Notes: generated by a model not told the origin, from the letters alone. DNA of 24,310 nucleotides from Candidatus Mcinerneyibacteriota bacterium (GCA_016937175.1 JAFGWL010000023.1:1-24310), one strand, 5' to 3'; positions 6,156 to 9,861 are shown, counted from the first letter of the stretch. Program-made: numbers and translations.

Positions 6156-6788
6156 GTGAATCTAACGGTTTTTCTCCAGGCCAGCGGTGTCTGGGGATAT
6201 CCCCTTTTGATTTTGTCGGTGATCGCCTTGGCGGCTATTCTGGACCGGTTTATCTTCCATCTCCGCCTGCTGGTGAAAAGGGCCCGGTTTAAGGGACTGG
6301 ATGCGGCTCTTTTCCTGAGAAAGAATCACTCTCTCAAAGATTATCCTTACGGCGGGATCATTATGGATGAGATCAAGGAGAATGTCGCATCCCTCTCGTT
6401 TTTCGATTATGAGCGGGCCCGGGGGATCGTCGCCACGTATCAGGGCCTTTCTGAAAGACGGATGGGCCTCCTGAGTTTTGCTGTGACGGCGGCTCCTCTC
6501 CTGGGGATCCTGGGGACCATCAGCGGCATTATCTCTTCTTTCCGGGTCCTGGGAGTCTTTACCCTGGAAAAGAAGGATCTTCTCACTGCCGGCATTTCGG
6601 AAGCTCTTCTGACAACAGCGGCAGGGCTGAGCATCGCCATCGTCACGTTAGCTTCGACAGCTCTTATCAGGCGGCTTCAGAAAACAGTCTTTCTCCCCTA
6701 TGTCACTTTTCTCCGGTTTATGAAAGCAGCGGTCCTGGATGTTCAGGACACTCAGAAAAGGAGAAAAAGGCCCGCCGAAGCCGAATAG
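6156..6788 (+). CDS. ExbB/TolQ/MotA-family proton-channel protein, without partner
   Basis: A 210-residue inner-membrane protein with predicted helices at about 14-33, 104-126 and 149-171. The motifs LLGILGTISGIISSF and ISEALLTTAAGLSIAI match the conserved second and third helices of ExbB and TolQ, which with ExbD or TolR form proton-driven motors that act on the outer membrane. No ExbD/TolR gene is adjacent, so its partner must be elsewhere or it acts alone. The GTG start at 6156 is preceded by the purine-rich AAGGGAAGGGGAG. The last 37 bases overlap, in antisense, the end of the convergent outer-membrane protein gene. It follows metG by 13 bases and probably shares its transcript. Confidence 0.85.
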   Translation: MNLTVFLQASGVWGYPLLILSVIALAAILDRFIFHLRLLVKRARFKGLDAALFLRKNHSLKDYPYGGIIMDEIKENVASLSFFDYERARGIVATYQGLSERRMGLLSFAVTAAPLLGILGTISGIISSFRVLGVFTLEKKDLLTAGISEALLTTAAGLSIAIVTLASTALIRRLQKTVFLPYVTFLRFMKAAVLDVQDTQKRRKRPAEAE

Positions 6789-7813
6789 CCGCTTCCACGG
6801 CTCCAGTAATCCTCAGATTCATAGTCGTCCCACTCCCATGAAAAGGACGTTGCCAAAAAGGGCGCAAGAAAGAAACGCCCTTCAGCGCTGATATTCCATC
6901 CTTTGATGGTGACTCCCGCATCAGACGGGGTGATCTCATCAAGAAAAGAGTAGCGTTCGGGATACTCTTTATAAAAATAGTTCACGGCCGGATTGAGATA
7001 GAGACGTCCCAGGGAGAGAGAGGCCTCGATGAGGATTCCGTAGCAGTGATAAGTGTCGGCATCCTGTTCTACGAGAGGTTCTATCTCGGCAGGGATAATG
7101 GCGGCCATATTGCTGTTTTGTGATTCCCAGTAGAGGCGAGGGGTAAGGGTAAAAGCGGTTCTAAGTGAAAGTTCTGTAGAGAGCGAGAGGCCGAAAAGGT
7201 CTGAAGAGGGGGTCAGGAGAGTTCCGGCGTGGCCGGTCTCAAGACGACGTTCTTCCCAGATATGGTGTCTGAAGTAGCCCGAAAGGGTAAGGGAGTCATC
7301 CAGGGCGTAATAGTACTGGAAAGAAGCCGATCCCTCGAAGAAACTGTTGGAAGCTGTCTCCAGCCCGTATTTGCTCGACCCTAAGGAGGCTCTCAAAGTC
7401 GTCCGGATTCTGGACAGGTCGTCGTAGATGTAGGAAAAAGAGCCTTTGAGGCCGGTCAGGTCTGCCTTTTCCCATTCTGTATAATCACTGAGCCCCCATT
7501 CGCCCAGCAGGCGGAGAGTGCTTTGCATGCTGAGAAGCAGATCATAGGAAAGAGAGAGGTTCATAAGAAGCTGGTTTTCGCTTGCTTCCGATGTAAAACC
7601 CATATGACTGACAAAAGCCTCGGCCAGGAAGGCGGAGGAGGAGTAGGTAGCGAAAAGAGATTCTTCAAGGAATGCTGAGGAGATTTGCGAAGAATCGCGG
7701 TAGATATTTTCGTCGTACCCGTAGGTGACCCCTGTGAGAAGCGAGGCTTCCGCGTGAAGTGCTGTCAGGGATGCCGCCAGAAGAAAGACGAGGATAACGA
7801 GTTCTTTTTTCAT
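6752..7813 (-). CDS. Predicted outer-membrane beta-barrel protein
   Basis: A 353-residue protein with a signal peptide (MKKELVILVFLLAASLTALHA). The mature part is rich in aromatic residues and alternating polar/hydrophobic short strands such as YDLLLSMQSTLRLLGEWGL, and it ends in phenylalanine (GLFLLF), the typical C-terminal signature for BAM-inserted barrels. I do not recognise a named family. It is the last gene of the minus-strand operon; its ATG overlaps the upstream stop by ATGA. The final 37 bases overlap the ExbB-like gene on the other strand. It could be the structural output of the sigma-factor operon, perhaps a porin or surface barrel, but no substrate or ligand can be inferred. 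Confidence 0.72.
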   Translation of the reverse strand: MKKELVILVFLLAASLTALHAEASLLTGVTYGYDENIYRDSSQISSAFLEESLFATYSSSAFLAEAFVSHMGFTSEASENQLLMNLSLSYDLLLSMQSTLRLLGEWGLSDYTEWEKADLTGLKGSFSYIYDDLSRIRTTLRASLGSSKYGLETASNSFFEGSASFQYYYALDDSLTLSGYFRHHIWEERRLETGHAGTLLTPSSDLFGLSLSTELSLRTAFTLTPRLYWESQNSNMAAIIPAEIEPLVEQDADTYHCYGILIEASLSLGRLYLNPAVNYFYKEYPERYSFLDEITPSDAGVTIKGWNISAEGRFFLAPFLATSFSWEWDDYESEDYWSRGSGYSASAGLFLLF

Positions 7814-8400
7814 GAGAGGTCCTCCAGTTGTCGTTTAATGAAAGAGATGGAATAGCCTTCGCGGAAAAGAGAGATGAGACGTTTTTTCCGGGATTCGCTT
7901 TTCATCCCAAAATCCCTTCCGTGAAGGGTTTTGATAAGCCCGGTGAGGACGGTGAGGTCCCGACGGGAATAGTTCCTTAAAGCAAAGGCTTCAGCCAGGA
8001 CTTCCAACTCCTCGGGGGTGGCCTGAAGATAGCCCGCCGCTACGCTGAGAAATCCGTTAAGAGCCTTCAAAAGCTCATCAGAAGCTTCTTTGGCATTGAG
8101 GATCCCGGCCAGGGAATCGGCGGAAAGCCCCAGGTCGCTGTAATAAAGGTAATGGGAGATGTCTTGCGCCTGAAAAGAGGAACAGGACTCTTTCAGGCGG
8201 TGCAGAAAAGATAGGCGGGAAGTGATGATCCCTTCGATCTCAGCTTCGCGTCTGTGCAGCCTGGCCATACGGATGTAGGTGTCCCAGTAATCCGACTGAA
8301 ATCCGAGTTCTTTGATACGCTTCTCCACGCTTGGGGGCATCTGCGCTGCAGCCTGAAGCGTCAGGGATAAGAGAAGGGCAAGGAGAGCAAGAAAGCGCAT
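7810..8400 (-). CDS. Exported helical protein of unknown family
   Basis: A 196-residue protein starting at ATG 8400 (MRFLALLALLLSLTLQAAAQ), which begins with a classical signal peptide. A longer open frame reaches back to 8436, but that would place 12 charged residues before the signal peptide, and ATG 8400 sits directly on the upstream stop (TGATG). The mature protein is mostly alpha-helical, with a central segment containing two Leu/Ala-rich helices and a basic C-terminus (KSESRKKRLISLFREGYS). I do not recognise it. The operon position, between a charged exported protein and a barrel, suggests a periplasmic partner of the barrel; that is an inference. Confidence 0.65.
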   Translation of the reverse strand: MRFLALLALLLSLTLQAAAQMPPSVEKRIKELGFQSDYWDTYIRMARLHRREAEIEGIITSRLSFLHRLKESCSSFQAQDISHYLYYSDLGLSADSLAGILNAKEASDELLKALNGFLSVAAGYLQATPEELEVLAEAFALRNYSRRDLTVLTGLIKTLHGRDFGMKSESRKKRLISLFREGYSISFIKRQLEDLS

Positions 8401-8810
8401 CAACGGCTGTTCCCCGCTCCCGGCTCTTCGCTCCACCTGGGAGACCTGAACTCCCTGCGTTTTTCCACGCTTTCTTTCCGGGCCTCTCGTTTTCTTTCAC
8501 GGACAACCCAGGCCTTAGCGTATTTTTCTTTGGATGTTTCAGAGCCCCTCTCTTTTTCCATCTTTTCCAGAGACTCACGGGACATCCGGCAAATCCGCTT
8601 GAGGGCTCTGATCTCTTCAGACAGGGTATTTGAGCGTTCTGAAAGCCGATGAAGAAGGCCGTCGGCCTTCTCTTCGCTCAAGCCTTTTTCCATAAGCTCG
8701 CTTCTGGTATGACGGCGGATCATCTCCGTCTTTTTTTCCAACGTCAGCCCTGAAGCGGGAAGAGTTGAGAAAAAGAGGATAAGGGCGAGAAGAGGGAGAT
8801 ACTGTTTCAT
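8400..8810 (-). CDS. Small charged exported protein
   Basis: A 136-residue protein with a signal peptide (MKQYLPLLALILFFSTLPASG) followed by a Lys/Arg/Glu-rich, strongly helical body that may form a coiled coil around residues 35-85, and a basic, Arg-rich tail. The start at 8810 has an excellent AGGAGG (reverse strand of about 8818-8823), so a longer upstream reading to 8966 is not needed. It somewhat resembles periplasmic helical sensors such as CpxP/Spy in size and helix content, but lacks their LTxxQ motifs, so I make no family claim. Its ATG overlaps the CBM48-protein stop by ATGA, and its own stop overlaps the next ATG by one base. Confidence 0.62.
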   Translation of the reverse strand: MKQYLPLLALILFFSTLPASGLTLEKKTEMIRRHTRSELMEKGLSEEKADGLLHRLSERSNTLSEEIRALKRICRMSRESLEKMEKERGSETSKEKYAKAWVVRERKREARKESVEKRREFRSPRWSEEPGAGNSR

Positions 8811-9250
8811 ATATGTTCCTCCTTTGAACCGTTGACATGGACGAGTGAGACATCTCCTCCGTAAGGGTCTGAGAGTAGGGCCGAACGCGGGTCGGGAACT
8901 GCTCCTCCGTCTACCGAGAAGAGATATCTGTAGGAACCGGGTTCCAGTTTCAGTGTTACAGTCCATTCACCGGACTGTGTTTCCGTCATGGGGATACCGG
9001 GCTCTCCCCATTGGTTGAAATCACCCAAAAGGGAGACCTGCCGGGCTTCAGGGGCAAAAAGTGTGAAGGTGATACGATGCTCCGGCCCCTGCAGGCTGTG
9101 AAAGGGGAAGAAAAGAGTGAAGAAGAGCAGGGTGCTTCCTGCAAAGAGGAGAAGGATGCGAAAGGCCCGGCGCGATGCCCGGTAACGGAAGATACGGTCC
9201 ATTACCCGGTCCGCTGCCTGGGCGGGGAATCTTTCAGGAGCGTGATGCAT
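8807..9250 (-). CDS. Single-pass membrane protein with CBM48/AMPK glycogen-binding-like domain; possible anti-sigma factor
   Basis: A 147-residue protein with a 30-residue basic N-terminus (MHHAPERFPAQAADRVMDRI), one membrane helix at about 31-48, and an extracytoplasmic early-set/CBM48 domain at about 58-140. That domain carries LLGDFNQW with Trp81, GEW with Trp96 and the YRYLFSVDG...DP end, the positions that bind glycogen-like sugars in AMPK beta. In other phyla, similar TM-CBM48 proteins lie directly after sigma-factor genes and are suspected anti-sigma or sensor proteins. Here it follows the sigma gene with a 17-base overlap and a strong AGGAGG. No zinc-finger (zf-HC2) motif is present, so its anti-sigma role is inferred from context only. 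Confidence 0.8.
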   Translation of the reverse strand: MHHAPERFPAQAADRVMDRIFRYRASRRAFRILLLFAGSTLLFFTLFFPFHSLQGPEHRITFTLFAPEARQVSLLGDFNQWGEPGIPMTETQSGEWTVTLKLEPGSYRYLFSVDGGAVPDPRSALLSDPYGGDVSLVHVNGSKEEHI

Positions 9251-9782
9251 GAAGGCCTCCTTTCCAAAAGACCTCTTTGATCTTTTGTCTTATACGGAAA
9301 AGGATGATTTTGATATTGGAAGGGCTTTCACCGGTGAGTTGAGAGATCTCCCGGACGGTATAGCCGTCTGAGTAGTAGAGATGGAAGATCTCTTTCTGTC
9401 CGTCGGGGAAATCCTCCAGGAACTCATCCAGGCGGCCGGGGAGGGAAGAGGGGAGAGACGTCCGGCTGTCGGGGAGAAGGGAGAGGTCTTTTTCGACGAA
9501 CTGGGGGCGGGATCTTTTTTTGCGTAATTCACTGTTGACCATATTGAGGGTGATCCGGTAGAGCCAGGAGAAAAATTTGTATTTCGGGTCATATTTTTTC
9601 AATTTACGGTAGACGTGGAAAAAGAGGTCCTGAGAAAAGTCCACGGCATCCTCATGGGAGTTGAGGCGTCTGTAAGCCATCCGGTAGACGAGGTCGCCGT
9701 ATCTGTTCATGATCTCCCGAAAAGATTCCGGGTGCCCTTTCAGAATATAACTTACTACCATACGATCATCCCAATCATGCAT
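9234..9782 (-). CDS. ECF-type RNA polymerase sigma factor
   Basis: A 182-residue sigma70-family protein. Region 2 lies at about 8-75, including HPESFREIMNRYGDLVYRMAY and the DAVDFSQDLFFHVYRKL core. A variable linker and region 4 at about 120-172 follow, with the helix-turn-helix YTVREISQLTGESPSNIKI. It should direct RNA polymerase to its own promoter set. I choose ATG 9782 (MHDWDDRMVV) because region 2 then starts at the normal distance. The frame stays open upstream to 9902, but that part does not look like a sigma factor. A sigma70-like promoter places the ATG at the predicted transcription start, so the message may be leaderless. It heads the five-gene minus-strand operon. Confidence 0.92.
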   Translation of the reverse strand: MHDWDDRMVVSYILKGHPESFREIMNRYGDLVYRMAYRRLNSHEDAVDFSQDLFFHVYRKLKKYDPKYKFFSWLYRITLNMVNSELRKKRSRPQFVEKDLSLLPDSRTSLPSSLPGRLDEFLEDFPDGQKEIFHLYYSDGYTVREISQLTGESPSNIKIILFRIRQKIKEVFWKGGLHASRS

Positions 9783-9788
9783 TATCAA

Positions 9789-9817
9789 AATATACCTGAT
9801 TTTCGCCCTTTCTGCCA
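9789..9817 (-). promoter_or_regulatory. Promoter candidate of the sigma-factor operon
   Basis: On the minus strand CTGGCA (9817-9812) lies 17 bases before TATATT (9794-9789), close to sigma70 consensus. The start codon at 9782 begins seven bases past the -10, where transcription would normally start. There is no Shine-Dalgarno sequence at the usual spacing (the only AGG is about 12 bases upstream and inside the promoter). Confidence 0.5.
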
Positions 9818-9861
9818 GAAAATACGCAAGAATAAGCCAGATGGTTACAGGGAAGTTCCGA

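Follow-up and report, generated by a model that had tools for sequence, protein, structure and literature searches.

What does a sigma-factor operon sense when its membrane protein carries a carbohydrate-binding domain and its remaining products are exported? The operon in question occupies positions 6752-9782 of the window (the whole stretch of 24,310 nucleotides that was analysed), where five minus-strand genes are chained by overlaps of 17, 4, 1 and 4 bases. The first encodes an ECF sigma factor (9234..9782, 182 aa) and the second a transmembrane (TM) protein with a CBM48 domain (8807..9250, 147 aa). These are followed by the genes for P3 (8400..8810, 136 aa), a small exported protein that is helical and charged, P4 (7810..8400, 196 aa), an exported protein predicted to fold as an all-helical solenoid, and P5 (6752..7813, 353 aa), a probable outer-membrane barrel with Phe as its last residue. 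The initial annotation, made from the sequence, had these genes and overlaps correct to the base. The block probably encodes a transmembrane sigma/anti-sigma module whose periplasmic CBM48 domain reads a complex formed in the envelope by the exported proteins of the same operon.

A weak sigma-70-like promoter match (CTGGCA-18-TATATT) lies upstream of the sigma gene (9789..9818, minus strand); as two such matches were observed against 2.2 expected from shuffles, it carries no weight for function. At the other end of the block, an ExbB/MotA-like gene (6156-6788) is convergent with the P5 gene and overlaps it by 37 bases. The homologue of this ExbB-like protein in a genome of the same genus (G001) aligns only as far as residue 196 of 210.

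The sigma factor and the CBM48 domain

The sigma factor matches Pfam Sigma70_r2 (2.2e-14) and r4 (6e-8) and NCBIfam TIGR02937 (4e-29). It contains region 2 and region 4 only, the domain content of an ECF factor. Three genomes of the phylum are present in the collection: the window genome, G001 and G002 (Candidatus Mcinerneyibacterium aminivorans, VSIX01000029.1). In a phylogenetic tree, the window sigma factor is sister to the module sigma factor of Ca. Mcinerneyibacterium (support 100/99), and the module sigma is separate from three ECF paralogues common to all three genomes. It is found in two of the three and is more diverged than the shared paralogues.

The CBM48 domain of the second protein covers residues 58-131 (8858..9079, minus strand; Pfam coordinates), with matches to CBM_48 (2.7e-14, 53.7 bits against a cut-off of 22.4) and AMPK1_CBM (2.2e-11, 44.2 bits against a cut-off of 26.8). 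Among solved structures its best match is AMPK beta, with whose glycogen-binding domain it shares the CBM48 fold. The glycogen contacts of AMPK are W100, K126, W133, L146 and T148, and mutation of such contact residues lowered glycogen binding (PMC2642990). The window domain is bacterial and extracytoplasmic and, in contrast to AMPK beta, has lost four of these five contacts, W100 alone being kept; K126, W133, L146 and T148 are likewise gone from the orthologue in Ca. Mcinerneyibacterium aminivorans. The AMPK-type contact set is thus not present in the window protein.

These losses bear on the alternative that the protein is a glycan sensor, in which CBM48 would bind an alpha-glucan or envelope sugar directly, in the manner of RsgI/SigI, with the exported proteins as a sugar-handling output. 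CBM48 is a carbohydrate-binding fold, and the RsgI/SigI pairs of cellulolytic clostridia similarly combine an anti-sigma factor with an extracytoplasmic domain of carbohydrate-binding type. The sigma group of SigI is a different one, and RsgI, which occurs in Gram-positives, has CBMs of other kinds. The window proteins gave no Pfam or NCBIfam match to the RsgI N-terminal domain or a SigI-type sigma factor, the window sigma being a two-domain ECF factor. Polysaccharide-sensing anti-sigma factors are known, as with RsgI of Clostridium thermocellum (PMC12203970). Many relatives of the window protein also retain equivalents of W133 (12 of the 23 family members) and N150 (15 of 23), but that of K126 is missing from all 23, and no polysaccharide-degrading enzyme is encoded within the five-gene block. 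With W100 the only AMPK contact kept, direct sensing of a glycan is less likely in the window, and the alternative as a whole is considered unlikely. The initial annotation had suggested an envelope or extracellular glycan as the ligand, which finds no support for this protein in view of the lost contacts.

The probable anti-sigma end of the CBM48 protein

A single N-terminal TM segment was placed from the sequence at approximately residues 32-50 (9101..9157, minus strand; TM segments were computed for the family members), with the N-terminus inside by the positive-inside rule. The 17-base overlap with the sigma gene is the adjacency looked for in class I anti-sigma genes. No Pfam match to an anti-sigma domain was obtained for the window protein. 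The full four-helix domain is absent, with approximately 31-39 residues preceding the membrane in this protein and its orthologue, and only the last, pre-membrane helix remains. This helix, AADRVMDRI (codons 12-20; 9191..9217, minus strand), was located with a family profile trained on 21 other members, the window protein and its orthologue left out and the columns anchored on the window sequence. It matches the last anti-sigma helix of the family, with a score reached by none of 20,000 shuffled N-termini.

Among the 23 family proteins, eight match Pfam zf-HC2 (best 1.6e-8) and one RseA_N, and a HxxxCxxC motif is found in four (L050, L070, L138, L139). The cytoplasmic ends form a graded series across the family, with a complete domain at one extreme and a short stub at the other. 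Contact with sigma region 2 is made by the fourth helix in class I anti-sigma domains (PMC7406223), and the pre-membrane helix of the family may correspond to this helix 4.

The cytoplasmic part of just ~31 residues and the lack of a Pfam anti-sigma domain would also suit a membrane protein that acts as a positive co-factor or has a structural role, expressed alongside a sigma factor that is itself controlled in some other way. This is very improbable, as the homologues that share the TM-CBM48 part have anti-sigma domains beside ECF sigma genes, and the last anti-sigma helix is kept in the window. For the same reasons the window protein is very probably a membrane anti-sigma factor, an assignment well supported by a nine-residue helix motif together with the family context. 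The anti-sigma role had already been proposed in the initial annotation; of that interpretation as a whole, this role and the absence of known families among the exported proteins are upheld, and glycan sensing by the CBM48 protein is not supported.

Comparison with class I membrane anti-sigma factors (RseA, RsiW, the ChrR-type domain) is consistent with this. Adjacent or overlapping genes, a single TM segment and a cytoplasmic sigma-binding end are shared, zf-HC2 and RseA_N domains occur in the relatives of the window protein, and the protein itself keeps the pre-membrane helix. It differs in lacking helices 1-3, the three-helix bundle, and in having CBM48 as its periplasmic part.

Recurrence of the block and of the wider module

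The five genes recur in Ca. Mcinerneyibacterium aminivorans (L017:4004-7188), in the same order and strand. Identity to the window proteins is 34% for the sigma factor, 35% for the CBM48 protein, 22% for P3, 22% for P4 and 23% for P5. The orthologues of P4 (BLASTP E 4e-16) and P5 (E 2e-18) are secure; the P3 counterpart is weak (E 0.007) and is considered orthologous by position. The block is not a chance arrangement, given that gene order and strand recur with these P4 and P5 matches. Uniqueness of the order to one genome, which the initial annotation had named as evidence against the module, was therefore not found.

In G001, both flanks are present at 70-72% DNA identity and nothing lies at the site of the block. 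Comparison of window positions 6752-9782 with L156:2947-3040 is a clean case of presence and absence between same-genus genomes with syntenic flanks. The block is read as an accessory unit, being absent from a same-genus genome at the syntenic site. In G002 it lies at a different chromosomal place than in the window genome, and its G+C content is in line with each host (52% in the window genome, 25% in G002). From these sequence features, the block would appear to be a long resident that has been lost or moved.

Outside the window, the arrangement seen here, a TM-CBM48 gene that overlaps an ECF sigma gene or comes shortly after it, occurs at 22 distinct loci in approximately 20 lineages. These include Spirochaetales (L070), a deltaproteobacterium (L050) and Gemmatimonadaceae (L072, L119), mostly with overlapping genes. 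Two WOR-3 loci (L049:6013-7830 and L052:6070-7887) were rejected as members, there being no sigma gene nearby; their proteins are exported, have CBM48 at the N-terminus ahead of a long C-terminal part, and are followed by a CBM48 lipoprotein.

Downstream of the pair, most of the other loci encode a protein that is exported, all-helical and marked by an E-G-x-x-K motif. These proteins form one family, as judged by leave-one-out profile tests (E 1e-4 to 1e-27). A search of 386 genomes, in which CBM48 was not required and neighbours were scored in 1.5-kb flanks, gave 27 matches in 22 genomes. A CBM48 gene was adjacent to 26 of them and an ECF sigma gene to 23. For the 15 matches outside the seed loci, a CBM48 gene was adjacent in 14 and an ECF sigma gene in 11. 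The sole match of the 27 without a CBM48 neighbour resembles a dynamin-type GTPase.

Some loci contain a CBM48 lipoprotein gene between the anti-sigma and helical genes. Others have an added barrel-like protein, which in Gemmatimonads bears a C-terminal CBM48. The fusion and the intervening lipoprotein point to contacts between CBM48 and its partners in the periplasm.

Further genes were observed around these modules. A second small CBM48 gene follows the anti-sigma gene in L132, L136, L137, L140, L141 and L142, and is lipoprotein-like in several of them. A DUF4382 lipoprotein gene lies beside the sigma/CBM48 module at L017:3103-3972, L070:3927-4859 and G063:C18:287787-288209 (by Pfam) and at L072:4295-4969 (by eye); no DUF4382 was found in the window genome.

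The exported proteins and the proposed signal

P3, P4 and P5 have signal-peptide-like N-termini and match no Pfam or NCBIfam family, which upholds their description as three exported proteins of no recognised family. The AlphaFold model of P4 (pLDDT 84) is a helix-hairpin repeat, a predicted alpha-solenoid. Fold searches with P4 returned nothing beyond modestly scoring designed helical repeats and arrays of the TAL-effector and mTERF types, with no specific relative. Across the 386 genomes its only relatives are the two phylum members; a weak full-length match in G237 was rejected, as it sits among regulators judged by eye to be of GntR type. P5 is a probable outer-membrane barrel on the basis of its composition, with a high aromatic content, and its high strand alternation; its AlphaFold model (pLDDT 28) is uninformative.

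The window order of P4 (solenoid) and then P5 (barrel-like) is that of other lineages in position and type. Against the exported helical family (A7), P4 gives a weak profile match (E 0.0046). Its score of 24.3 is above those of 44 controls (maximum 19.4) and 100 column shuffles (maximum 16.5) and below that of every left-out true member (33 to 166), and P4 was not matched at 1e-5 in the 386-genome search for the family. As this similarity is weak, P4 is equated with the helical family by position and type, homology being unproven. Comparison of P5 with the barrel-like proteins of other lineages was not significant (hhalign E 0.11 and 0.15), and homology of P4 and P5 to those exported proteins is only suggestive. 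Two candidate relationships of P3 were discarded. An initial profile match to the helical family (E 0.00018) came from the signal peptide alone and was gone after trimming, and there was no similarity to an exported protein of 143 aa encoded upstream of the sigma gene in L026.

The view that P3-P5, as unrelated lineage genes, have nothing in common with the sigma/anti-sigma pair beyond a transcript is the least credible of the alternatives: it would fit their lack of a detectable family and the sub-significant similarity to module proteins elsewhere, but the five genes are found together at different chromosomal places in two divergent genomes and are jointly absent in the third, and an exported helical protein followed by a barrel-like one occupies these positions in other lineages too. 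The layout is thus not unique, and the lack of known families for P3-P5 stands.

An anti-sigma factor with CBM48 outside the cytoplasm and co-encoded exported proteins probably reports on the state of the envelope. In the preferred reading, that of a sigma/anti-sigma module reading an envelope complex, the CBM48 protein would tether the ECF sigma factor to the inner membrane by means of its short cytoplasmic helix, putatively what is left of a class I anti-sigma domain. The periplasmic CBM48 domain would be the sensor, touching a complex of the P4 solenoid and P5 barrel, perhaps with P3, by protein contact. The likeliest signal would be the presence or assembly state of this complex. A change in that state may lead to inactivation of the anti-sigma factor, probably through regulated intramembrane proteolysis by an M50 protease, and the freed sigma factor would then transcribe its targets. 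Genes for site-2 proteases (M50) are present in the window genome. Judged by the fusion and the loss of contact residues only, CBM48 as a docking domain rather than a glycan reader is the favoured interpretation.

The window operon shares with FecIRA-type cell-surface signalling the grouping of an ECF sigma factor with a regulator in the inner membrane and a probable outer-membrane barrel. It differs in that neither a FecR domain nor a TonB-dependent receptor was matched by Pfam in the CBM48 protein or P5, and in that helical exported proteins accompany the barrel.

The operon analysed here represents a lineage-specific form of a signalling unit that is widespread in bacteria. The open-licence literature searched yielded no published account of the module; as it excludes most subscription papers, this is weak evidence of absence. 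The suggestion that the module is undescribed is thereby retained for its combination and breadth, which are apparently undescribed, and set aside for its component parts, which are of known kinds. A bolder reading, held tentatively, is that of an undescribed, phylum-spanning module in which CBM48, a domain known for binding glucans, serves as a protein-docking sensor between an anti-sigma factor and an outer-membrane solenoid/barrel assembly, with an anti-sigma end in the window protein that is more reduced than any other in the family series.

ECF sigma systems are a main bacterial route for envelope sensing, with the signal known for only a minority of them. A fixed CBM48 sensor with recurrent exported partners across approximately 20 lineages offers a case in which the partners point to the likely signal, and it ties an exported helical family without a Pfam entry to a regulatory role. 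Hosts of the module belong to groups that have been cultured, Gemmatimonadota and Spirochaetota among them, which makes it amenable to testing.
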